From assembly GCA_947453625.1 (NCBI GenBank), contig CANGHK010000054.1, positions 1-34,606 of the forward strand: 34,606 nucleotides of DNA, in the 5' to 3' direction. Shown here in pieces: positions 7,048 to 34,423 of the stretch. Numbering within the stretch: position 1 is the stretch's first letter; each line of letters opens with the position of its first letter. Both the position numbers and the translations under genes were made by a program. The notes beneath the pieces were generated by a model. It was given only the letters and a program-made list of their open reading frames with translations, was not told the origin of the DNA and ran no database searches. The stretch is from Burkholderiales bacterium (GTDB lineage: Bacteria; Pseudomonadota; Gammaproteobacteria; Burkholderiales; Burkholderiaceae_C).

Positions 7048-7060
7048 TTGGAATCACACC

Positions 7061-13296: not shown

Positions 13297-15003
13297 GTGC
13301 TGCTCAAGAACCTTTCCAGGCCCAAGGTCGGCCTGTCCTTGCCACACTCGCAACCAGCGCCAGGGTATCTGGCATTGGCCAAGGGCAGCCTGGTCAGGCG
13401 CGGCGCTGAAATTTCAGTTGTTCTGCTGCTTGTGATTCTCGCTGCCTGTCAGGAAACCAGACCCGCTCTGCTTCCGGTTTCGGCACCAGACACCCAGGCC
13501 TACGAAAAGTCGGTGCAGACCACGATCGAGAACGCCCATGCGACCTTTGCGCGTATCGCTGCGGAAAAGCCAACGAACCTGAAGCTGGCCGATGCCTACG
13601 GCGAATTGGCCATGGTTCATCATGCGCAGGACCTCGCCCACCCGGCTGAGGCGGCATACAAGAATGCTCTCCTGCTGGCCCCGGGTGACAAGCGCTGGCC
13701 CTACCTTCTGGGTCATCTGTACAACGATACCGCCCGTCAGAGCGAGGCGATGCAGTGCTTCGAGGCCGTTCTCAAGATCGATGGCGACGACGCGCTGGCG
13801 CTGCTGTCGCTGGGCGAGGTAGCGCTTGCGCACGGTGATGTCGACCGCGCGCAGCAAGTCTTCGACAAACTCCAGCATGACAAGGCGGCGCGACCGGCCG
13901 CCCTGGCCGGGCTTGGCAAAGTCGCGCTCGCAAGGCGTGACTACACCAAGGCTGTAACCCATTTGGAGGAGTCGCTTCAACTCTGGCCGAACGGATCCAA
14001 GCTTCGCCATCCGCTGGCGGTCGCCTATCAGGCGCTTGGCGAGCGGGACAAGGCTGCGCAAGCCTTGCGGGGATATTCCGCCAATGGCCAGGAGCCCAGC
14101 ATCCCTGACCCGCTGGCCGATGCCCTGGGAGCCAAGGCGGCATCATCGAGAGCGCTGCTCAGGCGCGGGCAACGCTACGGTCAGTCAGGCCAGTTCGACT
14201 TGGCCAGGCAAGCGTTTCAGGCTGCTGCGCAAGCCGATCCCACAAACGCCGAAATACTGGCAAACCTCGGAATTTCACTGGCCAATCTGGGTCAACTGGA
14301 GGCGGCGCAGAAGTCATTGATCGAGTCCTTGCGAATCGACGACAAGAATGCCACCGCACAAATGAGTCTGGCCGTGGTGTACGACCGGCAAGGCCTGGAC
14401 CAGCAAGCCATCGGCCGCTACCTGGCGGCGATCGAGCGCGATGGCAAGAACGTGCAGGCCCGCGTCTATCTGGCCGATGCCAAGATGCGAGCGGGACTTG
14501 CGCTTGAAGCGGCTTCGCTGTACCGCGAAGCGTTCGGGATAAGTCCATCGGCCCGAATACGTCTGTCGCTGAGTTATGCGCTGTTGCGGTCAGGTCAGTT
14601 CGCCGAGGCCAAGAAGCAGTTGGAGGCTGGATTGGCTGAAGACGGCAGCAATCAGTCGATCGCCAATGCGCTCGCAAGAGTTCTTGCCGCGGTGCCAGAC
14701 GCCTCGCTGCGTGATGGCCAACGCGCCTTGAGCATTGCCAAGCAGTTGTTCGAGGCCACCAAGAGCCCGGATGCGGGCCAGACCTTTGCGATGGCGATGG
14801 CCGAGACGGGTGATTTCGAACAGGCGGTGAAACTTCAGCAGGAAACCGTCATCGTCTATGACCGTATGGGCGCATCGGCGATGAAGCCATTTCTGGAGCG
14901 AAATCTGGCGCAGTACCAGCAAAAAAAGGCAACTCGAGAACCCTGGTCTGCCACCGATGTGATGTTCCGGCCCAGGAGCCCTGCCGTCAGCCTGAAGCCG
15001 TGA
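13297..15003 (+). CDS. Tetratricopeptide-repeat lipoprotein
   Basis: A 568-residue exported protein. After a long basic n-region comes a hydrophobic stretch ending in the lipobox L-A-A-C with Cys51, so the mature protein should be lipid-anchored. The rest, from about 80 to 540, is a series of TPR helix pairs, for example AYGELAMVHHAQDLAHPAEA, LLGHLYNDTARQSEAMQCFE and ILANLGISLANLGQLEAAQK. Such solenoids bind partner proteins or peptides. The length and lipoprotein form resemble TPR proteins of exopolysaccharide or protein-sorting systems, but no specific family is proven. It converges on the seven-gene envelope operon and may serve the same machine, because that operon also contains a TPR-bearing lipoprotein. 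Confidence 0.85.
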   Translation: MLLKNLSRPKVGLSLPHSQPAPGYLALAKGSLVRRGAEISVVLLLVILAACQETRPALLPVSAPDTQAYEKSVQTTIENAHATFARIAAEKPTNLKLADAYGELAMVHHAQDLAHPAEAAYKNALLLAPGDKRWPYLLGHLYNDTARQSEAMQCFEAVLKIDGDDALALLSLGEVALAHGDVDRAQQVFDKLQHDKAARPAALAGLGKVALARRDYTKAVTHLEESLQLWPNGSKLRHPLAVAYQALGERDKAAQALRGYSANGQEPSIPDPLADALGAKAASSRALLRRGQRYGQSGQFDLARQAFQAAAQADPTNAEILANLGISLANLGQLEAAQKSLIESLRIDDKNATAQMSLAVVYDRQGLDQQAIGRYLAAIERDGKNVQARVYLADAKMRAGLALEAASLYREAFGISPSARIRLSLSYALLRSGQFAEAKKQLEAGLAEDGSNQSIANALARVLAAVPDASLRDGQRALSIAKQLFEATKSPDAGQTFAMAMAETGDFEQAVKLQQETVIVYDRMGASAMKPFLERNLAQYQQKKATREPWSATDVMFRPRSPAVSLKP

Positions 15004-15135
15004 TGCAGCCAAACCGGTCGAAAACCTGGAGATCACACGAATGCCATCGCCGACCTGACGCATCCATGGCAGATTGGCGGCTGCCATCGATAGACGGACC
15101 CGATCTTGAGCGACTGTGTGATGCCTTGCGTCAGA

Positions 15136-15645
15136 TCAGGGCGCCGGTGCACTGGCCGCTGACGGCGGCGCCGGTCCAATGCCATGGGCAAACAGATAGG
15201 CCTGATCTGGCGCCGTCGACGCCGCGGCCTTGGATGGAGCGTCACTTGGCGGCGCCGCGACGACCATGGCGGACGCCTTGCCCCGAGGCAGCACCCACAC
15301 GGTGTCCACGCGCCACTGCCCTGAGCAGCGGCTGCTCGGCGCATAGCTGACCATCAGGTTCGCCTGGTGAGACAGCGCCGTCATCAGGTCGATGTCGCTG
15401 CCGCCACCATGGGCGACGAGCGGGTCGTCACCGGTCCAGTATTCCACCCGGAAGCGACGAATAGCCGAGAGGTCGCGCAACAACTGGGACAGACGCGCTC
15501 GCTGCGGCACAGTGCGCGGCAGATCGCACAATCTGGCGGCATTGCTGACCGGCCCTGCCGCAGATGCAGCACCGGCGACAACCAAGGCGGCGAGTCCGAG
15601 CCAGCACGAAGCATGACGGGCGCGGCTCGCAGCAAGCAAGGTCAC
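15136..15645 (-). CDS. Small secreted protein, unknown function
   Basis: A 169-residue protein that starts with GTG 15645, overlapping the stop codon of the gene before it in a GTGA junction, so translation is probably coupled. A signal peptide is clear (hydrophobic WLGLAALVVAGAASAAG). The mature part contains two segments, RRFRVEYWTGDDPLV and DIDLMTALSHQANLMVSY, followed by a Cys near a WRVDTVWVLP strand, then a Pro/Ala-rich low-complexity tail. The pattern of a short beta-alpha-beta unit followed by 'VWVLP' vaguely recalls STN/secretin N-terminal modules, but this is a weak guess. The frame is open much further upstream, but those codons lie inside the neighbouring gene. It is the last gene of the seven-gene operon. 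Confidence 0.65.
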   Translation of the reverse strand: MTLLAASRARHASCWLGLAALVVAGAASAAGPVSNAARLCDLPRTVPQRARLSQLLRDLSAIRRFRVEYWTGDDPLVAHGGGSDIDLMTALSHQANLMVSYAPSSRCSGQWRVDTVWVLPRGKASAMVVAAPPSDAPSKAAASTAPDQAYLFAHGIGPAPPSAASAPAP

Positions 15646-17021
15646 AGATCCACCGAAGCGAGAAGATCGACGAGAACCCAGCGGTCGCCTATCCGCGCAG
15701 CGATCCAGCCGACAGTGTCGTAAGGCGCATGCCTGAGCCTTGCGATGGCGATCATGCGTGTCATGCCCGCGAAGTCTGTCAGCGGCCGCACGATGTAGGG
15801 CAGCAATGGCATGGGCGCTGGCCCCGCAGGTTGCAGTGGATACACAGCATCGGCGACCCGCATGGGCGGCAGCATGGCGGCCGTGCCAAGCGCCAGTCGG
15901 TCGACCGCCTGCAACTGTGTTTCGCTCAGGGGCGCTGGCGCGTGGGCAAGTTTGGCCGCAGCGCCATGATCTCGCAGTTTCCAAAGCTTGAGTCGCGCCG
16001 CCATCTCGCGTGCCGAACGAACACCGTTGCTGACAGCCGGCCCGGCGCGAGCGGGTCCCATGTCGGCCAGGATATTTTCAGCCCTCTCGTTGCTCAGCCA
16101 GCGCGCCAGCAATTCATCGAAGAAGGCTAGCACGTCGGCGGGCGCATCGTGCTGCAAGGACTTGCTGTCGGCCAATGGCGGAAGGCGCTGGCCGCTCCAA
16201 GTCAGCGGGCCCGGATCCGGTCCGTCGGGCAAGCTGATGCCGCCGAGAAAGTGGGTGTTTGCCATGCCTTGATCGACGAACCAGGCCCGCTTTTGCGTCT
16301 TGGTCGAGGCCGTGGCGAATGCGCTCAGAGCGGGCAGCAGCGAAGCCCAGTCGGCCGACTGTCTATCCTGACCCTGGATCGCCGGATACCGGCGCAGCGC
16401 TTCATAGCTGGCTTTGGCCATGTCGATGACATCGGCCGGCCAGGCGGCGCTCAGGTTGGCCGAATGAGACTGCGGGCCTCCACGCGCTGCCGGCGGTGAA
16501 GAGGCCAAAGCAGCGTCGCAACCGAGCGACTTGCCCAGCTCGGGCTGCGTCGGCTTGCCCTGGTGTGCCCAGGAGTCCTGCAAGGGATGCAAGGCTTCGC
16601 CGAACTTGCCGAGCAACAGTCCTTCCTTGCCCTTGAGTTGGGACGACAGGACTGCCAGCGCCTGACGCGCAGCTTCGCTGCCGGGCACCACCATCCGATC
16701 GGCGGGTGCTGACGGCACTGGCTTGGCCGATGGATAGTGCTGGGTTTGCACCTGACGCGCGACCTCTGGAAAATTGCCGGCACAGGCATATTCGAGACCG
16801 AAGGCCAGGTTCTCGATCAGACCGCCGTCGATGCGCTGGTTGGCCACCGCGATCGAATCGGCCTGCGACTGCGTGAAGCCTGCGCGCAACGCCAGCCAAC
16901 GGGTAAGTCCGAAGTGGACATCGCTCTCGAAAGCCCGGGCAGGAAGCGGCAACGTCAGCAAGGTGGCGACGAGAGCAAAGATGGCAGGCAGCCTGAGTTT
17001 CATTGCGGGACTTGCTTTCAT
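15642..17021 (-). CDS. Secreted phospholipase-C/S1-P1-nuclease-like metallo-hydrolase (copy 1)
   Basis: A 459-residue exported protein with a signal peptide (hydrophobic IFALVATLLTLPLPARA) and mature start FESDVHFGLTRWLALRAGF. A metal-site signature H-x3-D-x-W-x-H is seen in EALHPLQDSWAHQG, with further likely ligands in DVHFG, QRIDGG and a SHSANLSAAWPADV segment. This arrangement belongs to the zinc-dependent phospholipase C / DUF6765-like fold; the true substrate (phospholipid, nucleic acid or other phosphoester) cannot be told. A C-terminal domain ends in RHAPYDTVGW. ATG 17021 lies 2 nt after the stop of the upstream gene; ATG 17003 is an alternative that leaves the signal peptide intact. 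It is a clear paralog of the gene at 33053-34423. Confidence 0.82.
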   Translation of the reverse strand: MKASPAMKLRLPAIFALVATLLTLPLPARAFESDVHFGLTRWLALRAGFTQSQADSIAVANQRIDGGLIENLAFGLEYACAGNFPEVARQVQTQHYPSAKPVPSAPADRMVVPGSEAARQALAVLSSQLKGKEGLLLGKFGEALHPLQDSWAHQGKPTQPELGKSLGCDAALASSPPAARGGPQSHSANLSAAWPADVIDMAKASYEALRRYPAIQGQDRQSADWASLLPALSAFATASTKTQKRAWFVDQGMANTHFLGGISLPDGPDPGPLTWSGQRLPPLADSKSLQHDAPADVLAFFDELLARWLSNERAENILADMGPARAGPAVSNGVRSAREMAARLKLWKLRDHGAAAKLAHAPAPLSETQLQAVDRLALGTAAMLPPMRVADAVYPLQPAGPAPMPLLPYIVRPLTDFAGMTRMIAIARLRHAPYDTVGWIAARIGDRWVLVDLLASVDL

Positions 17022-17023
17022 CG

Positions 17024-18499
17024 TCAGTTGCCGCCTGCCAAGGGCATGGACAGGATCCACAGACCGAAGTTGGTGAACACCATCATCAGCGCCAGCATCG
17101 GAAGCTGACTGAGCGCGGCCCTGCGCGGCGAGCCGAAGCTTCGAAGCGCCTCGACATGGGCAAGGTAGACGCCTGCGATATGGCCGAGCAGAATCAGCGC
17201 GACTTGGGTATGCCAGATCAGTTCCACATCGAGCATCATCGGTTGGATCACCAACTTGGCCGTGCCGAACAGATTCCAGCCGTAGCCGAAAGGGTCAGAG
17301 ATGAGCTTGAACAACTGCCCGCCCTGCGACAGCAGCAGCGTGTAGTAGTGCGTCACGTGGTACACGAAGGCGATAGGCAGCAGTGACATCGCGAATCGAA
17401 GCACCAGATCACGGGTTGAAAGAGTTGTTCGCGAAAAGACCTTCACCGCCCACATGAAACCAGCAAAGAACAACAGATAGACCAGCGGGGACAACAAGAG
17501 TGAGCCGTATTGCCAGAGGTAGTAGAGCTTCGTCGACAGCAGGTACTGCTGGCCAGGCGCTGGCGTGAACCAGGGCGCGATGTCCGGATAGATGTTCTTC
17601 CAGAACACGTTGGCCCAGGGCAGCGTCGAGTGCAAACCATCGAAAGCGGTCGATGACAGCATGAACAAGAGGAACAACACCAGAGTCACGTGGCTCGCCG
17701 ACTCGTCGGCCAGTGCGGTGAACGGCAGCCGCCAATGGCGTTGCCGGCCGCCCGATGACGGTTGCTCGACACCCCAAGGCCGAGACCAGGGCGATATCTT
17801 GCCCATCAAGTGCAGCAGAACTCCGAAAAACTCGCCGTGACGGAACCACAGGTCTCGGCCAAAGGCATAGGCGCCGAGCAGGTTGATCATGGTGTAGCCA
17901 AGCAGGGCGAGCGACAGACCGCGTGGCCCGAGTTGCCCGAAGAGTTCGAGCCAGATGAACGTCATGTAGAGCAGCAGCGCGGGAGCGTAGCCCAGCCCTG
18001 TCGGGTAGCGCAGCCTGCCGCTGAACGCCATGCCAGACGTGCTCTCGACCCAGCTTGCGAGTGCCTTCCAGGGGTTGACTGGCGCATAGAAATCGCCCAG
18101 CAGCGCTACCGCATAGGGCAGGCCAAGGACGAAGAAAATCCAGAAAAAAGTCATGTTGAAATTGGCGAAGGCATTTTGCGTGCCTATCAAGCCGGAGACG
18201 ATGCACAAGACCAACAGGAAGACACTGCAGGCGCTGCCGACTGTCATCCGACTCGGTATGCCGTCGGCAAACGCAGTGAAGACCACCCGCACCGGCGCCA
18301 GGCGGCCCAGCGCCGGCGCGGCCGCAAACAAGCCCACGACGATGAATGAAAACAGCAGCGCCGCCATCGCACCGTAGGCGTACATCGAGAACGGTACAGG
18401 CAGGGTGTAAGGCTGGCCAAAGACATGCGCGCTGGTAGCTGCGGGCAGCAACGCCCCGATGACCAGACCGATGCGTCTCGACTTCTTCAGGACAAGCAT
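17024..18499 (-). CDS. Polytopic histidine-rich membrane protein, 'fenitrothion hydrolase'-like family (copy 1)
   Basis: A 491-residue inner-membrane protein with a cleavable-looking signal (hydrophobic up to A24) followed at once by H25 (TSA|HVFGQPYTLPVP) and about twelve hydrophobic segments. Conserved blocks shared with the copy at 30818-32305 include LPVP..YAYGA, GD.Y...NP, PALLLYMTFIWLELFG, FMLSSTAFDGLH and DPFGYGWNLFG. The C-terminus holds conserved histidines (about H384 in VTHY, H430 in IWHTQ, H440 in GHI, H448 in AHVEAL). From memory, actinobacterial homologs are often labelled fenitrothion hydrolase; that name is not evidence of activity. The histidines suggest metal or haem binding. 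The start at 18499 has GAGGT about 9 nt upstream; a longer frame opens at 18691. Confidence 0.78.
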   Translation of the reverse strand: MLVLKKSRRIGLVIGALLPAATSAHVFGQPYTLPVPFSMYAYGAMAALLFSFIVVGLFAAAPALGRLAPVRVVFTAFADGIPSRMTVGSACSVFLLVLCIVSGLIGTQNAFANFNMTFFWIFFVLGLPYAVALLGDFYAPVNPWKALASWVESTSGMAFSGRLRYPTGLGYAPALLLYMTFIWLELFGQLGPRGLSLALLGYTMINLLGAYAFGRDLWFRHGEFFGVLLHLMGKISPWSRPWGVEQPSSGGRQRHWRLPFTALADESASHVTLVLFLLFMLSSTAFDGLHSTLPWANVFWKNIYPDIAPWFTPAPGQQYLLSTKLYYLWQYGSLLLSPLVYLLFFAGFMWAVKVFSRTTLSTRDLVLRFAMSLLPIAFVYHVTHYYTLLLSQGGQLFKLISDPFGYGWNLFGTAKLVIQPMMLDVELIWHTQVALILLGHIAGVYLAHVEALRSFGSPRRAALSQLPMLALMMVFTNFGLWILSMPLAGGN

Positions 18500-18691
18500 G
18501 CGCGACAGACCTCGGCTGCGCAAAACGCCACGCAGCCCCGTACGGTCACTCCTTCCGAGTATTGATTGCAGCACTGCCGGCGAGTCGGCGTCTATCAAGA
18601 TTCCGATGCCTTGGGCTGGGCATACACCAGTACAGGTGGCACCCTGTGGTCGATCGACGTCAAGGTCATTTCCATTCATAGTCTGCAACAT
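18500..18691 (-). other. Open 64-codon extension or spacer inside the operon
   Basis: This is the only gap of note in an otherwise overlapping operon. The frame of the membrane-protein gene stays open back to an ATG at 18691, 6 nt after the stop of the CRTAC1 gene. The extension contains the short motif CTGVCPAQGIGILIDADSP. Either the membrane protein has a cytoplasmic N-terminal extension, or this is untranslated spacer. The signal-peptide-like start at 18499 favours spacer. Confidence 0.4.
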
Positions 18692-18697
18692 CTTTGC

Positions 18698-20464
18698 TCA
18701 GGGCATCAACGGACTGCCGGCACCTTGCGTCAGCGAGGCGTAGCTGCGCAGGGTTGGTGGCGCGAATTGCTCGCGCTGCCCGTTCGGCCAATGGACGATG
18801 AGACTGTCGATCGGCGGCCCGTCGCCCAGTCCCACCAATATGCGCGGATCATTGGCTGACAGATAGCTGCCATCGGCCCGCACCCGGCGCCACAACGACG
18901 GTCCGGATTTGCGCCTAACCTCGACCCGCGCGCCGTAGGCATCGCGCTTGCCAGACAGCAACCGCAGACCGACCCAGGCGTGAGCGCTGGTCGCCGTGTT
19001 GAGAAAGATTCGCAGCCTGCCATCGTTGTTGTTGACGACAAAATCGATGGCGCCGTCATTGTTGAGATCACCGACGGCCAGGCCGCGACCTACTTCCGAC
19101 AACGCGAATGCAGGCCCCCCCTTGCGAGTCGACTCCTCGAAATGACTGTTGCCGAGGTTGTGGAAGAGTTGCTTGCGCTGGTGTAGCGGATAGGGATCAG
19201 TTTGACTGCGCAGTGCCTCTATCACCTTGACCTCACCATTGGCCGCTACCAGGTCGAGCCAGCCGTCGTTGTCATAGTCGAGGAACGCAGTCCCGAAGCC
19301 GGTGAAGGGAATGCTCGGCACAGCCACGCCCACTTCCACGCTACGGTCTTCGAAGGTGCCGTCGCCGCGGTTGACGTACAGCGTGCTTTTCTCGCGTGAC
19401 ATGTGAGTCATGAAGATGTCGTCGGTGCCGTTGTTGTCGTAGTCGCCCACATCCAGACCCATGCCGGCCTCGGGCGATCCGTGGGCGTTGACCGCCACGC
19501 CACGCTCGGTCGCCTGGTCCTTGAAGGTGCCGTCCCGCTGGTTGATCCAGAGCTGGTTCGGGTTGCCGTCATTGGCGACAAAGATGTCCGGCCAGCCGTC
19601 CCCGTCAGCATCGAAGGCCATCACGCCGAGACCGGCGCCGAACGCTCTTTGTATCCCTGACTTGGCCGAGACGTCCTCGAACCGGCCGCCCCCCAGGTTG
19701 CGGTAGAGAACGCTGGGTTCGGTGCGGTAAGTCGCCGGGGCGCAATAATCCCGGGCGCTATTGGTCGCGAAACACTTCTTGTTCTCGGCGACGCTGTAGC
19801 GCACATAGTGCGTGACGAACAAGTCAAGTCGGCCATCGCGATCGAAGTCGACGAAGCTGGCACTCGCGCCCCAGCCGCCCTGGCCGGCCAGTCCTGCCTT
19901 GCGGGTGATGTCGCTGAAGGTGCCGTCGCAGTTGTTGCGAAACAACTGATCCGGACTGCCGAAGTGGCTTATGAAGAGGTCGACGCAGCCGTCGTTGTCG
20001 ATGTCACCCACTGCCACGCCCATGCCGTAGCCCCGGCTGCAAAGCCCAGAGTTCGCGGTGACGTCGGTGAAGTGGAGGCTTGGGTCGGAGGGCGTCGGTG
20101 CATCGTTGTGGTACAGGCGGGCGGCGCAGACCTCGCCACCCGGGCTGGACGGGGTACCCAGTCCGACACCCTGCAACACCAGCAGGTCGAGTCGTCCGTC
20201 ATTGTCGTAATCGAGAAGTGCCACACCCGACCCAATTATTTCGGCATAGAAGAATTCACCCGCCCGGCCATTGGTGTGTTGGAAGTCGATGCCGCTGGCC
20301 TGTGCCACTTCTGTGAAAAGTGCGGGTTGCCCTTCTGCCGGGGCCGATGCTGCCGCTGCCGCGGCATTCGGCTCGCGGCCGCGATCACAGCCAGCGACAG
20401 CCAGTGCCAGCAAGGCCAAGACGGCAGCAGCGGCACTCTGCCACCCTGAGACGCGGCGCCGCAT
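18698..20464 (-). CDS. CRTAC1 / ASPIC-UnbV FG-GAP lipoprotein
   Basis: A 588-residue lipoprotein with lipobox V-A-G-C at Cys26. Seven calcium-loop FG-GAP/VCBS units follow (for example LLDYDNDGRLDLLV, VGDIDNDGCVDLFI, FVDFDRDGRLDLFV, VGDLNNDGAIDFVV) and should form a beta-propeller. The C-terminal 90 residues are an ASPIC/UnbV domain (YGARVEVRRKSG, then ILVGLGDGPPIDSLIVHWPNG). UnbV-type proteins were first named from enediyne clusters but are widespread in envelope gene clusters; their biochemical role is unsettled. Its ATG shares one base with the stop of the UnbU-like gene (TGATG), implying coupled translation. The frame is open upstream to 20905, but that part lies over the neighbouring gene. 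Confidence 0.88.
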   Translation of the reverse strand: MRRRVSGWQSAAAAVLALLALAVAGCDRGREPNAAAAAASAPAEGQPALFTEVAQASGIDFQHTNGRAGEFFYAEIIGSGVALLDYDNDGRLDLLVLQGVGLGTPSSPGGEVCAARLYHNDAPTPSDPSLHFTDVTANSGLCSRGYGMGVAVGDIDNDGCVDLFISHFGSPDQLFRNNCDGTFSDITRKAGLAGQGGWGASASFVDFDRDGRLDLFVTHYVRYSVAENKKCFATNSARDYCAPATYRTEPSVLYRNLGGGRFEDVSAKSGIQRAFGAGLGVMAFDADGDGWPDIFVANDGNPNQLWINQRDGTFKDQATERGVAVNAHGSPEAGMGLDVGDYDNNGTDDIFMTHMSREKSTLYVNRGDGTFEDRSVEVGVAVPSIPFTGFGTAFLDYDNDGWLDLVAANGEVKVIEALRSQTDPYPLHQRKQLFHNLGNSHFEESTRKGGPAFALSEVGRGLAVGDLNNDGAIDFVVNNNDGRLRIFLNTATSAHAWVGLRLLSGKRDAYGARVEVRRKSGPSLWRRVRADGSYLSANDPRILVGLGDGPPIDSLIVHWPNGQREQFAPPTLRSYASLTQGAGSPLMP

Positions 20465-21348
20465 CAGGTGGCGACTCGCGCCTGACTGCCGGCTGGTGCT
20501 TTGCTGCCGGCACGCAATTCGATCCTGGCCGCCCACCACGATTCGAGCAGCAGTGCGGTCGGGCCCACGAAAAACAGTGCGTAATAAGGCGCGTAGACCA
20601 CCTGCGCCAGGCGCAGCACCGCTTCCATGGTGGCCACCGCAAAAGCCACCATGCACTGGCCGCGACGGGTCTTCACCGTCGTCTTCGGATCGGTGATCAT
20701 GAAGAAGATGAACAGCTGGTACATCGGCCCGGTCACTGGCGAGATCTCGGATTCGAAGGTCGCACCGGTGTACCAACTGCGCAAGCCGGCGTAACAGATG
20801 AAGGCAATCACGTAAGTCGCTGTGATATGAAAGCGACGCAGACGCCAGATGATGAATGCGCCAAGCACCCAGATCACCAGCATCGCCCAAACATGGTTGC
20901 CCCACTGGATGCTCAGGCTGCCGACCATCTCGCCGCCCAGGAACAGCAGTGCAGAGATACCGAAGTTAGAGGGATTCCAGAGGTGGCGGCCTCGATAGCG
21001 CAACACGTACTTGGAGAAGATCGAGATCGCCGCGCACAGCGCAAAAGGCCAGAAGGCCGGTGACCGAACCAGAATGCCGACGCTGATACCCGAGACATAG
21101 GCGCTGGCCGGGTGCGGCCACTTGCCAAGCATCAGGCGGCCGAGGACGAGTTCGACGCCGATGGCGACCGCAATCGCCAGAAAGGTGCGCGACGCGCTTT
21201 CGAGAAATCCGAATGACAGCTGGCCCACCACCAAGACCATGGTGATGAATACCGGCACCACATAGGGGCTGTCCAGACTCCCCAGATGTTGTCGCCAGGT
21301 CGGCACGATGGGCAGGCTCTGCGAAGATTCCGAGGTCGATGTCGTCAT
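20464..21348 (-). CDS. UnbU-like RnfD/NqrB-family membrane protein
   Basis: A 294-residue inner-membrane protein with about nine hydrophobic spans. The sequence HLWNPSNFGISALLFLGG and the late MYQLFIFFMITDPKTT match the two most conserved segments of RnfD/NqrB-type ion-pump subunits and of UnbU. The canonical flavin attachment motif (D-x-x-[ST]-G-A-T) is not convincingly present: a Y-T-G-A-T occurs, but the acidic position is Ser. It may therefore bind a redox cofactor differently or have a non-redox role. It overlaps the genes on both sides (ATGA and TGATG). A pairing of UnbU with UnbV domains is known outside enediyne clusters; its function is not known. Confidence 0.85.
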   Translation of the reverse strand: MTTSTSESSQSLPIVPTWRQHLGSLDSPYVVPVFITMVLVVGQLSFGFLESASRTFLAIAVAIGVELVLGRLMLGKWPHPASAYVSGISVGILVRSPAFWPFALCAAISIFSKYVLRYRGRHLWNPSNFGISALLFLGGEMVGSLSIQWGNHVWAMLVIWVLGAFIIWRLRRFHITATYVIAFICYAGLRSWYTGATFESEISPVTGPMYQLFIFFMITDPKTTVKTRRGQCMVAFAVATMEAVLRLAQVVYAPYYALFFVGPTALLLESWWAARIELRAGSKAPAGSQARVAT

Positions 21349-27012: not shown

Positions 27013-28689
27013 ATGATGGAATCCAGGATGTTGTTGGCCGACGCGGGCAAGAGGCAAGCCCAGAGCCCGAAACAGAGGCTGTCAAGTTGGCTCGCGCCAA
27101 GTGCGGCATGCCTGGCAAGTTTGTTGCTCCTTGGCTGCGGCGGCAGCGATGGCACGGGTACTGCTGCCGCCCCGACGGCCACAGCGGCCAGCTTTTCGGT
27201 GGCCAAGGCGGCGTGCGGACCAGGCGACAAGCCGGAACCCGATCTGCAAGGACAAGTCTCGGCAGCAGTGCGAACAGCTGGCTTCAAGGGCTACAGCTGC
27301 AACCTGGAACTGGTCAGTCAGTACAAGGGCGATGGCGCGAGCTGGCAATTCGCCTGGTTCCAGGACCGCGCCGGACACAAGTGTGCTTACTACGACACCT
27401 CAGTTCTCAAGAACGACGGCATATCAAGAAGCGCAACTCAGATCGGCACGATCGTGCTCGACATCTCCGACCCGGCCAACCCCAAGCAAACGGCCAACCT
27501 CACCACGACGTCCATGCTGGACCCCTGGGAGTCGCTCAAGGTCAATGAACGTCGCCAACTGCTGGGCGCGACCCAGGCGACCAACGGCAAGGGTGGTCCG
27601 CAACTTGATCTGTATGACTTGTCGGGCGATTGCAGAACACCGCAACTGCTGTCGAGTGTGGCGATAGGAACCGCGGGCAATGGCGACGCCGCGGCGCTGC
27701 CGGCAGGCTACGACCTGCAAGGCCACGAAGGCAACTTCTCTCCGGACGGTCTGACCTGGTACAACGGCGACCGCGGCGCGGTCAAGAAGTACACGGCCAT
27801 CGATATCAGCAACACGATCCATCCCAAGTTGCTCACCACCTGGGATCTGCCGCTGGTGCCGACCGTTGTGCTCACGACGCATGGCTTGAACATCAGCCCC
27901 GACGGCAACCGCGCTTATGTATCGCGCGCTGGCGTCCTTGGATCAGTCGCAACCAACGATCTCAAGACAGCACCCGAGGTCGACGGCATGATCATCCTCG
28001 ACACCAGCGAGGTTCAGAAGCGGCTGCCCAATCCCAAGATCAAGCAAGTCGGCATGGTCACCTGGCGTGACAGCGGTCAGGCCCAACACACGATCGACAT
28101 CATCGTCAAGGGCAAGCAGTACGTGGTCGTCGCCTCTGAATTGGGAACCGGCGGCAACAGCCCTGCCGGTTGGGCGGCATCCTGCGCCGCAGGCTTGTCT
28201 CCGTTTCACACGGCCCGAATCGTCGACATTGCAGACGAGACCAAGCCCGTCGTCGTCTCCAAGCTGTTCCTCGAAGCCTATGACCCAGCGAATTGCTCCA
28301 AAGTCCTTCCGGACCTGGCGGGGCTGAGCAGCTTCACCTACGGCAGCCATTACTGTAGCGTCGACAACAAGGACAACGCGACGACCCTGGCCTGCGGCTA
28401 TTTCAATTCCGGCATCCGCGTGTTCGACATTCGCGATGTTGCGAATCCGAAAGAGATCGCATATTTCAACCCGCCAGGCGTAACCACGATCAGCAACGGT
28501 TCGAACCACAACCGCGCGGGCGGCTGGGTGAGTGGTGGCCCTGACTGGTGCAACTCCCAGATTCGGCTGGACGCCGCGACCGCAAGCCTGCAGACCATAT
28601 GCCAGGACAACGGCTTCTTGTCACTGAAGTTCAAGAACGGCGTGTGGCCATTCCCGGAGAGCACCACGCCAGCCGGCAAGCAGAACTGA
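27013..28689 (+). CDS. LVIVD-repeat beta-propeller lipoprotein (copy 1)
   Basis: A 558-residue lipoprotein with a basic n-region, hydrophobic LASLLLLGC and lipobox L-L-G-C at Cys42. Repeats of the LVIVD type recur (IVLDISDPANPKQTANL, RIVDIADETKPVVVSKL, RVFDIRDVANPKEIAYF), and HGLNISPDGNRAYVS fits a propeller blade. Ten further cysteines lie in short motifs (KAACG, YSCN, HKCAYYD, GDCRTP, AASCA, ANCSK, HYCSVD, LACGY, DWCN, TICQD), all kept in copy 2, so up to five disulfides are possible outside the cytoplasm. The function is unknown; LVIVD proteins are thought to be surface proteins. A good Shine-Dalgarno supports the start. Confidence 0.85.
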   Translation: MMESRMLLADAGKRQAQSPKQRLSSWLAPSAACLASLLLLGCGGSDGTGTAAAPTATAASFSVAKAACGPGDKPEPDLQGQVSAAVRTAGFKGYSCNLELVSQYKGDGASWQFAWFQDRAGHKCAYYDTSVLKNDGISRSATQIGTIVLDISDPANPKQTANLTTTSMLDPWESLKVNERRQLLGATQATNGKGGPQLDLYDLSGDCRTPQLLSSVAIGTAGNGDAAALPAGYDLQGHEGNFSPDGLTWYNGDRGAVKKYTAIDISNTIHPKLLTTWDLPLVPTVVLTTHGLNISPDGNRAYVSRAGVLGSVATNDLKTAPEVDGMIILDTSEVQKRLPNPKIKQVGMVTWRDSGQAQHTIDIIVKGKQYVVVASELGTGGNSPAGWAASCAAGLSPFHTARIVDIADETKPVVVSKLFLEAYDPANCSKVLPDLAGLSSFTYGSHYCSVDNKDNATTLACGYFNSGIRVFDIRDVANPKEIAYFNPPGVTTISNGSNHNRAGGWVSGGPDWCNSQIRLDAATASLQTICQDNGFLSLKFKNGVWPFPESTTPAGKQN

Positions 28690-28758
28690 TCTGCGCTTCA
28701 TGTCGTCAAGACAGGTCCGGCGGTGCAGCTGCTGGATTTTTTTCAGAACCACCAAAAT

Positions 28759-28762
28759 GGAG
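28759..28762 (+). promoter_or_regulatory. Shine-Dalgarno deciding the start of the second LVIVD gene
   Basis: GGAG lies 9 nt before ATG 28772 (an AGGA also sits closer). It selects the shorter start over in-frame ATGs at 28700 and 28757 and gives a proper lipoprotein signal. Confidence 0.6.
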
Positions 28763-28771
28763 ACAGGAACG

Positions 28772-30451
28772 ATGAACAACAAGCATCAGCGGCACATGTT
28801 GCCAACGCGACTTTCGTTGGGGTTGGTGATCTCCGCCTCAGCGTTTCTCTGGGGCTGCGGCGGCAGCGATGCCGTCATCACTGCCGCGCCCACTGTGCAA
28901 GCCGAGGGATTGGCCGTGGCAAAGGCCACTTGCGGCACCGGCGACACGCCCGAGCCGGACTTGCAGGGACAGGTATCTGCCGCGGCACGAACGGCAGGAT
29001 TCAATGGCTATAACTGCAACCTGCAGCTGATTGGCCAGAGCAAGAACGATGGCGGCAGTTGGCAGCACGCGTTCTTCACCGACAAAGCTGGGCACAAGTG
29101 CAGCTATTACGACACCTCTTCGGGCACGGCTGGCAGACGCCACATGGGCGTGGCCGTGATCGACGCCACCGATCCTGCGAAGCCCTACCGTACGACGTCT
29201 CTTGAGACGACAGCGATGATGGACCCCTGGGAGTCGCTGAAGGTCAACGAGAAGCGGCAGATGCTGGCTGGCGTCAACGCCGTGAACGGCAATGGCGGCC
29301 CGGAAATCGAGATCTACGACTTGTCGGGTGACTGCCGCTACCCGCAACTGCTCACCTCGTCGAAGGTCGGCCTCGATGACGGCACAGGGCAATTCGTCGC
29401 TTCGGTCCAGGGGCACGAAGGCAACTGGGCACCTGACGGCCTGACCTACTACGCGGCAAACCTGAACAATGGCTACATCTACCCGATCGACACCAGCAAC
29501 CCGGCCAAGCCGAAGGCGCTGACGAAGTACGTCACCGCACCCGGACGCGTGCACGGCCTCAACATCAGCGACGACGGCAACCGAGCCTATGTCGCGATTC
29601 TGGGCCAAGGAAGCGCCGCGGCCCCATCGGCGACTCGACCTGCTGGAGCGCCAGCGAACAACGGCCTGCAGATCCTCGACACCAGCGAGATCCAGTCGCG
29701 CAAGGTTGGAGGCACGATCAAGGTCATCAGCACCCTGGTCTGGGATGACGGCGGCGGTGCGCAGCACGCCATCAATGCCGTGATCAACGGCAAGAAATAC
29801 GTGATCCATGCCGATGAGGCCGGGTCTGGCGGCAACAGCGCAGCCGGTTGGCAAGCGGCCTGCAGCGCCAATCTGCCCGCCTGGCAATTCGCGCGGATCA
29901 TCGACATTTCGGACGAGACCAAGCCAGCCATCGTGTCCAAGCTGATGCTCGAAGCCTATGATCCCAAGAATTGCAGCAAGGTGCTCCCGGATCTTGCCGG
30001 GCTGGGCAGTTTCACCTACGGCGCCCATTACTGCAGCGTCGACAACCGGATGAACGCCACCACCCTGGCCTGCGGCTACTTCAACTCAGGCATCCGAGTG
30101 TTTGACATCCGCGACCCGGCCAAGCCCAAAGAGATCGCCTATTTCAATCCTGCAGGCACCAAAACGGGAAGCCCTGGTTCGAACCATTACGCCTCCAACG
30201 GCAGTGTTGCATCGCCGGCGGGCGCGACCGGCGCCAATGTCGTTTTCAACACGCCGAACCAGATCACGACCTACAAGCAGAACGCTTGGGTCAGTGGTGG
30301 GCCTGACTGGTGTTCGGCCCAGGTTCGACTGGATGCGGCGACGGCAACACTGCAGACAACTTGCCAGGACAACGGGTTCCTCTCTCTCAAGTTCACGAAT
30401 GGAGTCTGGCCATTCCCGACCAGCAGCACACCGGCTGGCCTGCAGAACTGA
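28772..30451 (+). CDS. LVIVD-repeat beta-propeller lipoprotein (copy 2)
   Basis: A 559-residue tandem paralog of the preceding gene, 82 bp downstream, with lipobox L-W-G-C at Cys29. The same blocks are conserved along the whole length: PEPDLQGQVSAA, MDPWESLKVNE, DLSGDCR, VQGHEGNWAPDGLTYY, HGLNISDDGNRAYV, LEAYDPKNCSKVLPDLAGL, GYFNSGIRVFDIRD and VSGGPDWC. The ten cysteines of copy 1 are all present. Differences concentrate in two insert regions, around 29150 (short AGRRHMG) and around 30160-30280, where copy 2 has an extra ~25 residues before NAWVSGGPDWC. It is followed by a terminator, so the two LVIVD genes form one transcript unit. Confidence 0.87.
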   Translation: MNNKHQRHMLPTRLSLGLVISASAFLWGCGGSDAVITAAPTVQAEGLAVAKATCGTGDTPEPDLQGQVSAAARTAGFNGYNCNLQLIGQSKNDGGSWQHAFFTDKAGHKCSYYDTSSGTAGRRHMGVAVIDATDPAKPYRTTSLETTAMMDPWESLKVNEKRQMLAGVNAVNGNGGPEIEIYDLSGDCRYPQLLTSSKVGLDDGTGQFVASVQGHEGNWAPDGLTYYAANLNNGYIYPIDTSNPAKPKALTKYVTAPGRVHGLNISDDGNRAYVAILGQGSAAAPSATRPAGAPANNGLQILDTSEIQSRKVGGTIKVISTLVWDDGGGAQHAINAVINGKKYVIHADEAGSGGNSAAGWQAACSANLPAWQFARIIDISDETKPAIVSKLMLEAYDPKNCSKVLPDLAGLGSFTYGAHYCSVDNRMNATTLACGYFNSGIRVFDIRDPAKPKEIAYFNPAGTKTGSPGSNHYASNGSVASPAGATGANVVFNTPNQITTYKQNAWVSGGPDWCSAQVRLDAATATLQTTCQDNGFLSLKFTNGVWPFPTSSTPAGLQN

Positions 30452-30487
30452 ATCTGAAATTGCGGCTCAGAACACGAGCCCTTCAGA

Positions 30488-30518
30488 GCCTCCGGCGCGA
30501 AAGCACCGGGGGCTTTTT
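30488..30518 (+). terminator. Rho-independent terminator after the LVIVD pair
   Basis: Stem GCCTCCGG (30488-30495) pairs with CCGGGGGC (30506-30513), with one G-U pair and a 10-nt loop. It is followed by TTTTT (30514-30518), 36 nt after the stop codon. An extra A-T pair flanks the stem. Confidence 0.85.
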
Positions 30519-30817: not shown

Positions 30818-32305
30818 TCATCGTCCCGTCGGAAGCAGCACCTGCCCGGCAGCGATAGGCAGGGAGAGGATCCACAAGCCAATGGTGGTCAAGATCACCA
30901 TCAGCACCAGCAGCGGCAACTGGCTTAAAGCCGCCTGTTTCCGTGTCGGGAAAACCTTGAGCGCCTCGACATGGGCGAGGTAGACGCTGAGGATATGACC
31001 AAACAGAATCAGCCCGACCTGGGTGTGCCAGATCAAGCCGGCATCGAGAAGGATTGGCTGGATGTTCCAGCCCTTGTTGCCAAACAGGTTCCAACCAAAC
31101 CCGAAAGGATCAAAGGCGAGCGCCAGGGCGAGCGGCCCTTGAGCGAGTGCCAGCGTGAAGTAGTGCGTGACGTTGTACACAAAGGCGATCGGCACGAGCG
31201 AGAGCGCAAATTGAAGCGCGAGTTCAGGCACGGAGAGGGTTGTGCGCGCAACAAGCTTGGTCAGCGCAACAAAGCCAATATAGATGGCCAAGTAGACGAA
31301 TGGCGAGACGAGCATCATCAGCCACTGCCAGTAGTAGAAATAGTCGACCAGGATCAAGTATTGCCCAGGCTTGCCGGCGGCAATGAACTTGGCCAACACT
31401 GGAAACACATCCTTCCAGAAGACCTGGACCCACGGCACCGTTTCGTGGAGGCCATCGTATGCGGTTGAAGACAACATGAACAGCACGAAGATCAGCAAGC
31501 TGAAATGATCCGCACGCTCGCTCAGCAGTCCGACAAAGGGCAGGCGCAGGTGCATCGTCGCTGGTTGACCGCTTGCAGCGCAGCGGTATTCGAGAGGCGA
31601 CATTTTGGCAACAAGTCCGAGCAACACCGCAAACAGCTCACCTTGGCGGAACCAGGTCTCGCGGCCCAGCAGCCACGCCGCCGCCAGATTGATGGCGACA
31701 TAGCTCAAAAGAGCCAAGGACAGCGTGCGCGGATTCGTGTGGCCAAAAAGTTCGATCCAGATGAAGCCCATGTAGAGCGCCAATGCTGGGTAACAGCCCA
31801 GCCATTGCGGGTAGTGGCACTTCCCGCGCAACAGTCCGGGCCGAATGCGCTCCAGCCAGTCGCACAACACCAGCAAGGGGTTGATGGCTCGGTAGACGTC
31901 ACCAATCAGCGCGGTGAGGTAGGTAAAACCCAAGACAAACACAACCCAGAAAAAGGTGATGTTGAAGTTCCGCGTCGGAACTTTGGTGCCGGCAAGCCCC
32001 GTCGCGATGGTCAGGAGCAAGGCCAGAACACTCAGAACGCGACAGCCCGAGATCCAGTCTGGGCGCATCAAGGCGGCGCCGAAGCCGCGTCGACTCAATT
32101 CAAGGCTTCGCGACTGCAGACTTCCGGTGTCGCCACGGACGAAATAGCCGACCACGACGAATGAAGCCAGCAAGGCTGCAGTCGCGCCATAGGCGTAGAG
32201 CCACAACGGCACTGGCAGGTTGTATGGCACTTGCATCGCATGAGCTGCGGCAGAAGCAGTCCACAGCCACAGCAACGAAAGCAAAAAAAGTCTGTGAAAA
32301 CGCAT
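30818..32305 (-). CDS. Polytopic histidine-rich membrane protein, 'fenitrothion hydrolase'-like family (copy 2)
   Basis: A 495-residue paralog of the gene at 17024-18499. The signal peptide ends SAAA, followed by H22 (AAA|HAMQVPYNLPVP), so the mature protein should also begin with histidine. About twelve hydrophobic spans follow. The shared blocks are present: TFFWVVFVLGFTYLTALIGD, MGFIWIELFG, RTLSLALLSY, GRETWFRQGE, FMLSSTAYDGLHET, VYNVTHYFTL and DPFGFGWNLFG. The histidine trio is near H427 (IWHTQ), H437 (GHI) and H445 (AHVEAL). ATG 32305 lies 7 nt after the stop of the cupredoxin-like gene and has AGGG 5 nt upstream, so the two are co-transcribed. Its long C-terminal tail (VLLPTGR) differs from copy 1. 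Confidence 0.8.
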   Translation of the reverse strand: MRFHRLFLLSLLWLWTASAAAHAMQVPYNLPVPLWLYAYGATAALLASFVVVGYFVRGDTGSLQSRSLELSRRGFGAALMRPDWISGCRVLSVLALLLTIATGLAGTKVPTRNFNITFFWVVFVLGFTYLTALIGDVYRAINPLLVLCDWLERIRPGLLRGKCHYPQWLGCYPALALYMGFIWIELFGHTNPRTLSLALLSYVAINLAAAWLLGRETWFRQGELFAVLLGLVAKMSPLEYRCAASGQPATMHLRLPFVGLLSERADHFSLLIFVLFMLSSTAYDGLHETVPWVQVFWKDVFPVLAKFIAAGKPGQYLILVDYFYYWQWLMMLVSPFVYLAIYIGFVALTKLVARTTLSVPELALQFALSLVPIAFVYNVTHYFTLALAQGPLALALAFDPFGFGWNLFGNKGWNIQPILLDAGLIWHTQVGLILFGHILSVYLAHVEALKVFPTRKQAALSQLPLLVLMVILTTIGLWILSLPIAAGQVLLPTGR

Positions 32306-32312
32306 CTCAGCC

Positions 32313-32735
32313 CTAGCGTGGATAGACTTCAAGAGCGCCCAACTCTGCCTTGGCGTGGTGCAACTCATAGCCAAAGCGACCGGTTTGCTTTGCACTGAAT
32401 TGCAGCGTGGTGGTCTTGTCGGGCACCAGTGTGAGGTGCAAGTTGTATCCGTGCAGATGCAACTCGTCCGAGCTGTCGCAGATCATTCGAAAAATCACCT
32501 CATCACCCTGCCGCACCTGAATGACTGCAGGTCCTGTCACCAATCGTCCACGCTGGATCACCAGGTCGAAAACGACAGGTGCGGCTACAGCCAAGTCCAG
32601 CGTCGGTGTACCAGATGTGGCGGCTGTTGGCGACTCAGGTGTTTGCGCTTTCGACACCTCGGCTTTTGGCCTGAAAGTCACCAGCAGAACGCCCAGTAGG
32701 ACGATCACTGCTCCGAGATAGGCCAGAAATTTCAT
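32313..32735 (-). CDS. Membrane-anchored cupredoxin-like domain protein
   Basis: A 140-residue protein with one N-terminal hydrophobic helix (FLAYLGAVIVLLGVLLVTF), a Thr/Pro-rich linker and a ~90-residue beta domain. In the domain, RGRLVTGPAVIQVRQGDEV is followed by FRMICDSSDELHLHGYNLHL and a final FGYELHHAKAELGALEVYP. This is the Cupredoxin_1 pattern. Possible metal ligands are the histidines in ELHLHGYNLHL and ELHHA plus the nearby Cys, but the classical C-x-n-H-x-n-M set is not complete, so copper binding is unproven. ATG 32735 is chosen; the frame opens at 32789. It directly precedes the membrane-protein gene and probably shares its transcript. Confidence 0.75.
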   Translation of the reverse strand: MKFLAYLGAVIVLLGVLLVTFRPKAEVSKAQTPESPTAATSGTPTLDLAVAAPVVFDLVIQRGRLVTGPAVIQVRQGDEVIFRMICDSSDELHLHGYNLHLTLVPDKTTTLQFSAKQTGRFGYELHHAKAELGALEVYPR

Positions 32736-33052
32736 CGCGATGCGCAGCACGGTCCCACTGGCGCACTCCTTGTCATGAACTCGCCGCAACGGGCATCGTT
32801 AGAGGGTTTCGGACCCACAACCACGTACCGCTTGTCTCCGAAGTATAGAGCCGGCTCAACCTTCGAGTGACGGCTCAATCGACTCTCGTCCGCAGCGGTT
32901 GCCGCTGTCACGTCGCAGTCGCTTGCGCAATGTGCATTGCCGCGTTACCGTGTCACCAAAGACTTGCATCTTCAACTGTGAAGTCGAAGCCGACCGCCTG
33001 ACGTCTCGGAGAGTACGTCGTTTTTCAATACATTCTTGCTGTTCGGACTTCT
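32736..33052. other. Divergent intergenic region
   Basis: This 317-bp gap lies between divergent starts. The last 60 bases before 33053 are AT-rich compared with the rest of the window, which fits a promoter, but I could not assign -35/-10 boxes. No gene is supported. Confidence 0.4.
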
Positions 33053-34423
33053 ATGCAATTTCATTATTTTTTGCTCGTTGCTGTCTTGCTTTTCGTACCA
33101 GGGGCTGCGTCTGCATTTGAGCGAGATGTTCACTTCGGGCTTACTAAGTGGCTTGCATTGCAAGCGGGATTTACCCTTCAACAATCCAACGCCTTGGCAA
33201 CAGGAAACCAGCGGGTCGACGCTGGCTTGATGCAGTTCATCGAACTGCTGCCCTTGTACGCTTGCCTTAACAAGGATGAAGGAAGCGCAGTCGAGGTCGG
33301 CAGGCATCACTATCCCACGGCGATGCCGGCACCGGCCCCACCCGAGCAAAGAACTGTGATTGCCGGGAGCGATCAGGCGCGACAAGCCGCGATAGCGGCG
33401 GTCGACGTGTCGGCCAATCAAGCGGGCATCATGTTGTATAAGTTTGGCGAAGCCTTGCACACGCTGCAAGACTCATGGTCACACCAGGGTATTCCCGATT
33501 CGCCGCGAACCATCGGCGGCCTGGTCGCCTGCGACGCCGGCCTGGCCTGGGCACATCCGAGCAAGAGAGGCGGATCGAGCAGCCACAAAGCGGATCTGAC
33601 ACATGCATGGCCGGCCGATGTCGTCGCGATGGCGCAGGCCACCTACGACTTGATGCTCCGCTACCCGTTGATCAGCGAGGCGAAGAGAGACTCCAAGCCC
33701 TGGCCTGCTGTCTTGCCTTCACTGACAGGCTTCGTGCGCGCATCGACCAAAGCTCAGAAAAGGCATTGGTTCGCTGCCCAAGGCATTGCCGATGTTTCGT
33801 TTCTCGAGGGCATCACGCTGCAGGATGGCGGCGAGGCTTTCACACAGCGTTGGGATGGGCACAAACTGCCGAAACTCTCGACACTCCAGTCGACCCAGCC
33901 TCAAGTCGATCCTGAACTGCTGGATTTTTTCAGTCGATTCATTGCGCAATGGGTGTCCAGCGACGACTTCGATGCGTTGGCTTCGGACTTTGCTGCTGAG
34001 CCCAAGCGGCCGAGTGACAACACGCCGGGCGCTTCCAAGGCCATGGGCAGAACGGAACTCGTTGCTCGTTTGACCGCTTGGCGGGTCCGCGATCACGGTT
34101 TGGTTGCCGGCATCGCCCATTCGCCGCAAGGCTTGAGCTCACAGCAACGCAACACCATCTTGTCGCTGTCAAAAGGACGCGACGGACTCGCGCGCTATGA
34201 CGCGCCCGGTGATGCGCTTTTCCCGCTGATGGTCAAGACGCGCGACCCCGCACCGCTGCTGGGTTTTCTGGTCAACCGATTTACCCCGCTAGCCGATGGG
34301 CACGAGCGGGCAACAGCGACCCTGAAATTTCGGCACACACCCTACGACACCGTTCAGGTGTTCGCGCAACGCCTGAATGGCCGCTGGCACATTGTCTCGC
34401 TCGCTGCGGTGGTTGATCATTGA
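33053..34423 (+). CDS. Secreted phospholipase-C/S1-P1-nuclease-like metallo-hydrolase (copy 2)
   Basis: A 456-residue exported paralog of 15642-17021. A signal peptide (FLLVAVLLFVPGAASA) is followed by FERDVHFGLTKWLALQAGF. Candidate metal ligands are H27 (DVHFG), D56 (QRVDAG), and H136-x3-D140-x3-H144 (ALHTLQDSWSHQG), plus a His-rich segment SSHKADLTHAWPADV at about 176-190. The C-terminal block RHTPYDTVQVF matches copy 1. It is transcribed away from the cupredoxin/membrane-protein pair. The substrate is unknown. Confidence 0.83.
   Translation: MQFHYFLLVAVLLFVPGAASAFERDVHFGLTKWLALQAGFTLQQSNALATGNQRVDAGLMQFIELLPLYACLNKDEGSAVEVGRHHYPTAMPAPAPPEQRTVIAGSDQARQAAIAAVDVSANQAGIMLYKFGEALHTLQDSWSHQGIPDSPRTIGGLVACDAGLAWAHPSKRGGSSSHKADLTHAWPADVVAMAQATYDLMLRYPLISEAKRDSKPWPAVLPSLTGFVRASTKAQKRHWFAAQGIADVSFLEGITLQDGGEAFTQRWDGHKLPKLSTLQSTQPQVDPELLDFFSRFIAQWVSSDDFDALASDFAAEPKRPSDNTPGASKAMGRTELVARLTAWRVRDHGLVAGIAHSPQGLSSQQRNTILSLSKGRDGLARYDAPGDALFPLMVKTRDPAPLLGFLVNRFTPLADGHERATATLKFRHTPYDTVQVFAQRLNGRWHIVSLAAVVDH

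Follow-up and report, generated by a model that had tools for sequence, protein, structure and literature searches.

Two adjacent envelope gene modules in a Burkholderiales contig, one of them a candidate metal redox or delivery module around an unnamed membrane protein family

A 34,606-nucleotide stretch of Burkholderiales DNA (contig C54 of genome G000, a 5.18-Mb assembly; hereafter the window) carries twelve genes that an earlier sequence-only reading had assigned to one envelope system. The reading favored here, with a probability of roughly 45% as a whole, is that the stretch holds two envelope modules, adjacent but evolving separately. Module A comprises exported repeat proteins (UnbV1, UnbV3 and a tetratricopeptide repeat (TPR) lipoprotein), which UnbV2 and the membrane protein UnbU join in the window. 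Module B would be a self-contained metal redox or delivery module made up of an unnamed polytopic membrane protein (MEM), a cupredoxin-like protein (CUP) and an exported lipoprotein of LVIVD or trefoil type. The two-module anatomy is highly probable; the metal-redox mechanism of module B is put forward tentatively. A literature search of one library found no published description of a MEM-CUP-lipoprotein module; we consider module B real and undescribed, and the single-system reading of all the genes probably too wide. The MEM family thus gains a likely ancestry, recurrent partners and a testable metal-site hypothesis, and its UnbV/TPR neighbors are shown to be a separate conserved set.

Two modules and the seam between them

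Open reading frames (ORFs) of the window were called, and 18 were scanned against Pfam and NCBIfam. Three ORFs matched PF07593 UnbV_ASPIC (55.0, 78.8 and 27.8 bits; cut-off 23.4), one matched PF03116 NQR2_RnfD_RnfE (29.4 bits; cut-off 27.7), and the ORF at 13297-15003 combines Pfam TPRs with a lipobox; three ASPIC/UnbV proteins, an RnfD/NqrB-like UnbU and a TPR lipoprotein are therefore present as first described. The same reading had joined seven genes in one tightly coupled operon. What is found is a run of four genes and a run of two, split by about 198 non-coding nucleotides. UnbV3, UnbV2, UnbU and UnbV1, on the minus strand, overlap successively by 4, 4 and 1 nucleotides (the last as TGATG, between UnbU and UnbV1), and MEM1 and PLC1 are spaced by 2 nucleotides; these junctions, with the ATGA-type overlaps, agree with those reported earlier. 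The remaining one, a GTGA, is present at the end of the TPR lipoprotein gene, where an opposite-strand ORF (15000-15350) runs into it, and that ORF has flat G+C across codon positions (0.66/0.67/0.65).

The MEM1 ORF opens at 18691, upstream of an ATG at 18499. Over the 190 bases of 18502-18691, differences from the sister locus (L005) fall evenly on the codon positions (19/64, 19/63 and 17/63), whereas those within MEM1 show a third-position bias (45, 31 and 130 of 491 each). The start of MEM1 is accordingly placed at 18499, about 198 non-coding nucleotides after UnbV1. Scans for promoter- and terminator-like sites called none in this gap; such scans are weakly informative at this G+C. The gap is the boundary of modules A and B.

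Comparisons were made with 39 other genomes, 20 of them from the source genus, and with a class sample of 275 genomes (the source and 274 others). The C-terminal domain of UnbV3 occurs in three of these 274 (loci L127-L129), and all three hold UnbV1, the TPR lipoprotein and UnbV3 together, with 46-54% identity for UnbV1 (partial in L127) and 29-31% for the TPR lipoprotein. Neither MEM nor UnbU has a match anywhere in the three genomes. UnbU occurs in eight of the 274 genomes: it is fused to UnbV in L102, L104 and L105 and adjacent to it in L108 and L109 (five of the eight), lies at a contig end in L103, and stands without UnbV in L106 (at a contig start) and L107. No MEM was found in the stretches around UnbU in these eight genomes. 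The UnbU-UnbV fusion of L102, L104 and L105 sits in a similar-looking gene string in the three genomes. UnbU keeps an FMxTDP-like motif, and its PF03116 match covers the C-terminal part of that family. RnfD-like flavinylation of UnbU was considered and rejected, as the motif for covalent flavin mononucleotide (FMN) is not conserved (GAT in the window row only of a nine-row alignment).

Among the 53 MEM loci described below, UnbV lies within the available flanks of two, L005 and L026. The latter, from an Ectothiorhodospiraceae metagenome-assembled genome, holds MEM, four LVIVD matches, a TPR protein and two divergent UnbV-type proteins (found by BLAST) in about 16 kb; no other locus from beyond the genus brings MEM, LVIVD and UnbV-type proteins close together, and its UnbV3 match is limited to UnbV3 residues 467-634. 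The exact combination of UnbU, UnbV, membrane protein and PLC-like protein, for which co-occurrence in distant taxa had been sought, was found only in the sister genome G006, of the same genus. What recurs is a smaller set, MEM with CUP and an LVIVD or trefoil lipoprotein (DUF6765 in few loci). UnbU has a partner of its own in UnbV, and one complex of all twelve proteins is not demonstrated by these comparisons. Module B stands beside the UnbV module in one genus, and support for the two acting jointly is weak.

The MEM family and its partners

A search of genome contigs with MEM1 yielded 53 loci, with flanks of up to 10 kb and often shorter. Their genes were called and clustered, and profiles for MEM, CUP, LVIVD, the trefoil protein and DUF6765 were run on all ORFs. 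Neighbors were counted at 50 bits within 0.7 kb (trefoil and CUP), 1.3 kb (LVIVD) or 0.3 kb (DUF6765); the profiles were built from the same 53 loci, so that the counts are descriptive and constitute no independent test. The loci come mostly from Spongiibacteraceae, Nevskiales/Salinisphaerales, Limnobacter and Moraxellaceae, with a few Betaproteobacteria and odd metagenome-assembled genomes, and several genomes hold more than one (two to four in Zhongshania, two in Fontimonas). The family is found in bacteria and haloarchaea, and the module B genes are adjacent mainly in Gamma- and Betaproteobacteria.

A lipoprotein stands beside MEM in 47 of the 53 loci, 36 times of trefoil type and 11 times of LVIVD type, and never are both together. 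The trefoil protein is the only partner in 22 loci and is joined by CUP in 14; LVIVD is alone in 7, with CUP in 2, and with CUP and DUF6765 in 2. The loci without a lipoprotein have CUP only (two), DUF6765 only (one, the sister locus) or no partner (three). CUP thus lies within its limit in 20 of 53 loci. Strand is shared with MEM by 34 of 47 lipoproteins and 19 of 20 CUP genes. Copies at least 4 kb from MEM (at least 50 bits) amount to one LVIVD and none of the other partners, the few at 2-4 kb being uncounted. Gene clusters from outside the module reach at most seven loci within 3.5 kb of MEM, all Limnobacter-type, and the remaining recurrent ones at most six each, mostly confined to a single genus. 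When the neighbors were thinned for a Pfam survey (140 proteins, one per cluster, with 27 left out to give 113), none of the best 25 of 167 families occurred in more than 3 of the 113.

The class sample provides a partly independent check; its genomes may repeat those among the 53 loci. Its eight close-branch MEM loci (L133-L140) include four with CUP and six with one lipoprotein type; L137 has two MEM copies and neither lipoprotein type. Six further loci belong to another MEM branch, with CUP at L116 and no partner at L117-L121.

In a MEM tree of 43 rows, partner type needs one change over 36 labeled rows (support 94/95; 92% of bootstrap trees); shuffled labels gave a mean of 10.8, and 0 of 500 shuffles were as low. 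Several features of the tree limit this result, namely the presence of near-copies, the long branches of L059, L116, L050, L058 and L028, and the labeling of MEM1 (W_MEM1) and L058 as LVIVD despite distances of about 8.5 and 1.8 kb to their respective LVIVD genes. The MEM alignment (A1) left out L008 and L015 (stops in range), L021 (end stop), L003, L053 and several near-copies.

MEM1 clusters with L006 and L007 (99/89), which have LVIVD, CUP and DUF6765, and MEM2 falls in a different part of the tree. The sister genome, a fragmented assembly in which CUP and PLC2 were not sought, gave no match to MEM2 or LVIVD2. The two module B copies, described earlier as duplicated modules, look more like separate lineages than the product of a recent duplication; MEM1 and MEM2 are paralogues. 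The source genome has no MEM copy outside the window. Of the 21 genus members searched, only G000 and G006 have MEM, and the region is therefore accessory. Its G+C is 0.618 (0.597 over 27013-34423) versus 0.674 in the left flank.

A putative metal site in module B and its alternatives

Neither Pfam nor NCBIfam has a model that matches MEM, and the PDB sequences gave nothing beyond one chance row (E 0.59). Two members of a distant MEM-related branch (A4) were scanned and matched Fer4_5 at 26.9 and 26.1 bits (cut-off 22) and NapH weakly, at 29.3 and 32.7 bits against a cut-off of 213. MEM and the A4 family align over 394 columns (hhalign 99.8%, E 4e-29); A4 aligns with the NapH-like A5 over 91 columns (96.8%), and direct comparison of MEM with A5 gave no match. 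A C-x(2-3)-CP pattern is present in 18 of 18 A4-type rows (10 distinct genes, eight present twice), none of which has H-x7-H. By contrast, H-x7-H, predicted to lie within the membrane, is present in 75 of 76 MEM rows; the sole miss, L051, is a fragment at a contig end. Two MEM rows show the Cys pattern, both times off-site (the non-coding stretch upstream of MEM1 and the signal peptide of L049). A third His of MEM is common to the A4 family. Profile comparison indicates that MEM probably shares an ancestor with this NapH-like 4Fe-4S membrane family, whose iron-sulfur (Fe-S) cysteines are absent from MEM. In L111 the neighbors of the A4-type gene encode a molybdopterin oxidoreductase, proteins resembling NapG and NapH, and a cytochrome c; L110 and L112-L114 resemble L111 by eye, and the L110-L114 clusters include a small exported protein beginning AHHVLGRPAYSL.

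In 71 of 76 MEM rows, LPxP/LLPT comes directly after a small residue and a His, ahead of the first membrane helix. The misses are L137, which has AHSFGRTYSIPVP (outside the pattern), L007, which begins HTFAAPYTLPVP in A1, L060, which lacks the His, and L053 and L058, whose starts are uncertain. The His lies at the expected signal peptidase cut and would, if cleavage occurs there, form the mature N-terminus. Overall His content is ordinary (2.0% in MEM1, 2.3% in MEM2), so that the two "His-rich membrane proteins" of the sequence-only reading are polytopic but not His-rich. An AlphaFold2 model of MEM2 (mean predicted local distance difference test score (pLDDT) 85.7; predicted template modeling score (pTM) 0.86) gave no Foldseek match at E <= 0.001 and none convincing with VIA-align, which is not proof of a new fold.

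In an alignment of 24 CUP rows, HxH is present in 22, the following Gly in 23 and the His of ELH in 21; three rows hold any Cys, and a type 1 copper ligand set including Cys was not found in the 24. The single-sequence Pfam match of CUP is below cut-off. The CUP profile (A3) matches laccase, CuA, nitrosocyanin and Cu-nitrite reductase chains at E values of 5e-7 to 2e-6 (best 5.4e-7), in line with the cupredoxin-like protein first proposed for the ORF at 32313-32735. By profile CUP has a cupredoxin fold; it is probably periplasmic and may bind copper.

LVIVD1 and LVIVD2 are 59% identical and have no Pfam LVIVD match of their own, and their description as LVIVD propellers holds through homologues: they are 28-51% identical to MEM-neighbor proteins, one of which, in L017 (30-31%), matches LVIVD at 24.7 bits. 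A third copy (53% identical) lies elsewhere in the source genome, at G000:C6:116635-118209. An HxH motif is found in the trefoil partner, and 4 of 10 members match M19 dipeptidase weakly (best E 0.021). A guess that a 735-residue MEM neighbor was a TonB receptor was dropped in view of its lipoprotein-like start and weak trefoil/M19 matches. The two proteins earlier called PLC-like hydrolases both carry DUF6765 (34.6 bits in PLC1 and 32.6 in PLC2; cut-off 26.6), and no meaningful PDB sequence match placed either as a zinc phospholipase C or P1 nuclease. The His of the SWxHQG motif of DUF6765 proteins is replaced by Tyr/Phe in L006/L007. Fenitrothion hydrolase, another identity considered in this region, was set aside after a literature search gave no useful support. 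The DUF6765-MEM link comes solely from the window, L005, L006 and L007, because the profile found only the window's two copies in the class sample.

As we infer it, with metal identity (probably copper), electron transfer, substrate, direct contact and topology all included, CUP would bind copper (or iron), MEM would use its His site to pass on an electron or the metal, and the exported lipoprotein (an LVIVD propeller or trefoil/M19-like) would capture a substrate or metal complex, acting on the outer side together, sometimes, with DUF6765. A metal or redox role, once proposed for the whole region, is a reasonable inference for the MEM, CUP and lipoprotein set rather than for all twelve proteins. 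Five plasmid MEM loci, of 60 records, were examined, and three have metal neighbors: a heavy-metal P-type ATPase and a DUF7350/Fe2+-transport protein in Haloferax, a PCu(A)C chaperone in Sulfitobacter, and a copper membrane monooxygenase (CuMMO) operon just downstream of MEM in M. dioxanotrophicus. These links are anecdotal. A CuMMO accessory role for MEM, suggested by this one plasmid, was rejected, there being no positive tie in the class sample: MEM (26 genomes) and PmoB PF04744 (8 genomes) share none of the 275, with 0.8 expected by chance. A bolder version, that MEM, CUP and the lipoprotein make up a copper-dependent membrane oxidoreductase of a class not yet described, in which a NapH-type electron carrier has its Fe-S clusters replaced by a His metal site, is unlikely; there the site would possibly include the mature N-terminal His, and the extracellular substrate-binding lipoproteins would be exchangeable.

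That module B is instead a metal transporter, with MEM moving copper or iron that the lipoprotein would capture and CUP would load, is doubtful. The His at the predicted mature N-terminus, the cupredoxin partner and the metal-related neighbors in Haloferax and Sulfitobacter would suit it, but MEM homology points to electron carriers instead, the commonest neighbor families (best 25 of 167) include no metal transporter, and two to four MEM copies per Zhongshania genome would be unusual for a housekeeping transporter. The same multiplicity, with the two copies in Fontimonas, fits a catabolic system for hydrophobic compounds, composed of a metal-dependent membrane oxidase and exported hydrolase-like proteins: both genera are hydrocarbon or steroid degraders, some record titles mention crude oil or diesel, and the trefoil partner has its HxH motif and weak M19 matches. 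No catabolic gene, however, recurs beside MEM across lineages, and no component has a demonstrated catalytic site; this explanation is considered improbable.

Equally improbable is a single integrated complex in which UnbU/UnbV, MEM, CUP, LVIVD and DUF6765 jointly process an external substrate. MEM1-PLC1 does follow UnbV1 on one strand, no terminator-like site was called between them, gene order is preserved in the sister genome, and L026, from a different family, combines components of both modules; against these stand the non-coding seam, module A without MEM in L127-L129, the absence of UnbV from the available flanks of 51 of 53 MEM loci, and the sister genome's lack of MEM2 and LVIVD2 matches, with the limits given above. 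Chance juxtaposition of unrelated exported proteins in an accessory island would agree with the lowered G+C and the rarity of MEM in the genus, and is very improbable as a general account, since it leaves the recurrent MEM-lipoprotein-CUP and UnbV1-TPR lipoprotein-UnbV3 neighborhoods unexplained; chance is possible between modules A and B and disfavored within each.

Gene inventory and comparison with known systems

The features of the two modules are collected below; the lipoprotein start of UnbV3 was judged by eye to lie at about 26623. Rfam and tRNA scans of the window gave no matches.

Features of modules A and B in the window
Feature	Coordinates	Strand	Basis
TPR lipoprotein (module A)	13297..15003	+	Pfam TPR and lipobox; start codon possibly further in
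PLC1, exported DUF6765 protein (module B copy 1)	15642..17021	-	DUF6765 34.6 bits; homologues beside MEM in L006, L007
MEM1, polytopic membrane protein (module B copy 1)	17024..18499	-	family alignment; match in sister genome G006
Non-coding gap, module A/module B seam	18500..18697	-	divergence even across codon positions
UnbV1, FG-GAP/ASPIC lipoprotein (module A)	18698..20464	-	PF07593 55.0 bits; lipobox
UnbU, RnfD/NqrB-like membrane protein	20464..21348	-	PF03116 29.4 bits; 9-row alignment
UnbV2, FG-GAP/ASPIC protein	21345..23141	-	PF07593 78.8 bits
UnbV3, TPR, FG-GAP, ASPIC and unnamed C-terminal domain (module A)	23138..26794	-	Pfam
LVIVD1, propeller-type, lipoprotein-like start (module B copy 2)	27013..28689	+	homologues near MEM
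LVIVD2, propeller-type, lipoprotein-like start (module B copy 2)	28700..30451	+	homologues near MEM
MEM2, polytopic membrane protein (module B copy 2)	30818..32305	-	family alignment; AlphaFold2 model
CUP, membrane-anchored cupredoxin-like, HxHG and ELH (module B copy 2)	32313..32735	-	alignment; profile matches to cupredoxin structures
PLC2, exported DUF6765 protein (module B copy 2)	33053..34423	+	DUF6765 32.6 bits; alignment

To the left lies, divergent from the TPR lipoprotein gene and retained in the sister genome, a gene (12031-13011, minus strand) whose product resembles reductive dehalogenase (99 bits) and epoxyqueuosine reductase (61 bits) models, both below NCBIfam cut-offs. It is preceded by a subtilase with a PKD domain and a glycine-rich C-terminal membrane tail, sorting-signal-like by eye (9784-11862, plus), a fatty-acid desaturase family protein, perhaps AlkB-like (8264-9679, minus; PF00487, 91 bits), a likely toxin-antitoxin pair of a Gp49-like protein and an HI1420-type antidote (6760-7393, plus), and, with its ORF open at the left edge of the window, a long repetitive protein in which a short LTTAQ/ALS-type repeat recurs in many near-copies (1-5172, plus).

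UnbU resembles Rnf/Nqr subunit D/B in its PF03116 match and FMxTDP-like motif and differs in that the covalent-FMN motif is not conserved and no other Rnf/Nqr subunit is among the scanned ORFs. As in enediyne-type cassettes, UnbV adjoins UnbU in the window; the 18 scanned ORFs, however, include no DUF1702 or polyketide synthase match. Elsewhere, the UnbV-UnbU pair of L108 occurs with a DUF1702 gene (384 bits), and that of L109 lies beside a 1971-residue ORF, polyketide synthase-like by eye.

CopC has a mature N-terminal His. Module B resembles CopC/CopD and YcnJ in the predicted mature N-terminal His of MEM and its multi-pass character; it differs in that no Pfam copper family matches MEM. CopD and YcnJ are described as multi-pass membrane proteins proposed to move copper (PMC7558416). 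In the FtrABCD ferrous iron system, FtrC is described as moving iron with the cupredoxin FtrB (PMC7558416, PMC11966278). On that description, the pairing of a small periplasmic cupredoxin-fold protein (FtrB; CUP) with an inner-membrane protein is shared, and one Haloferax MEM lies near an Fe2+-transport/DUF7350 protein; the scanned window ORFs, in contrast, have no FTR1 or Fe2+-transport match, and the CUP motif is HxHG...ELH.

Neither molybdoenzyme nor cbb3 genes are seen in module B of the window. CcoG/FixG is a possible functional relative, CcoG being a type of cupric reductase that acts on Cu(II). The likeness to the NapH/MauN membrane ferredoxins lies in the 394 columns shared by MEM with an Fe-S family matched by Fer4_5 and, weakly, by NapH; the difference lies in MEM having an H-x7-H and no Fe-S cysteines. 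If real, a replacement of Fe-S by His would be a clear cofactor exchange in a membrane electron carrier.

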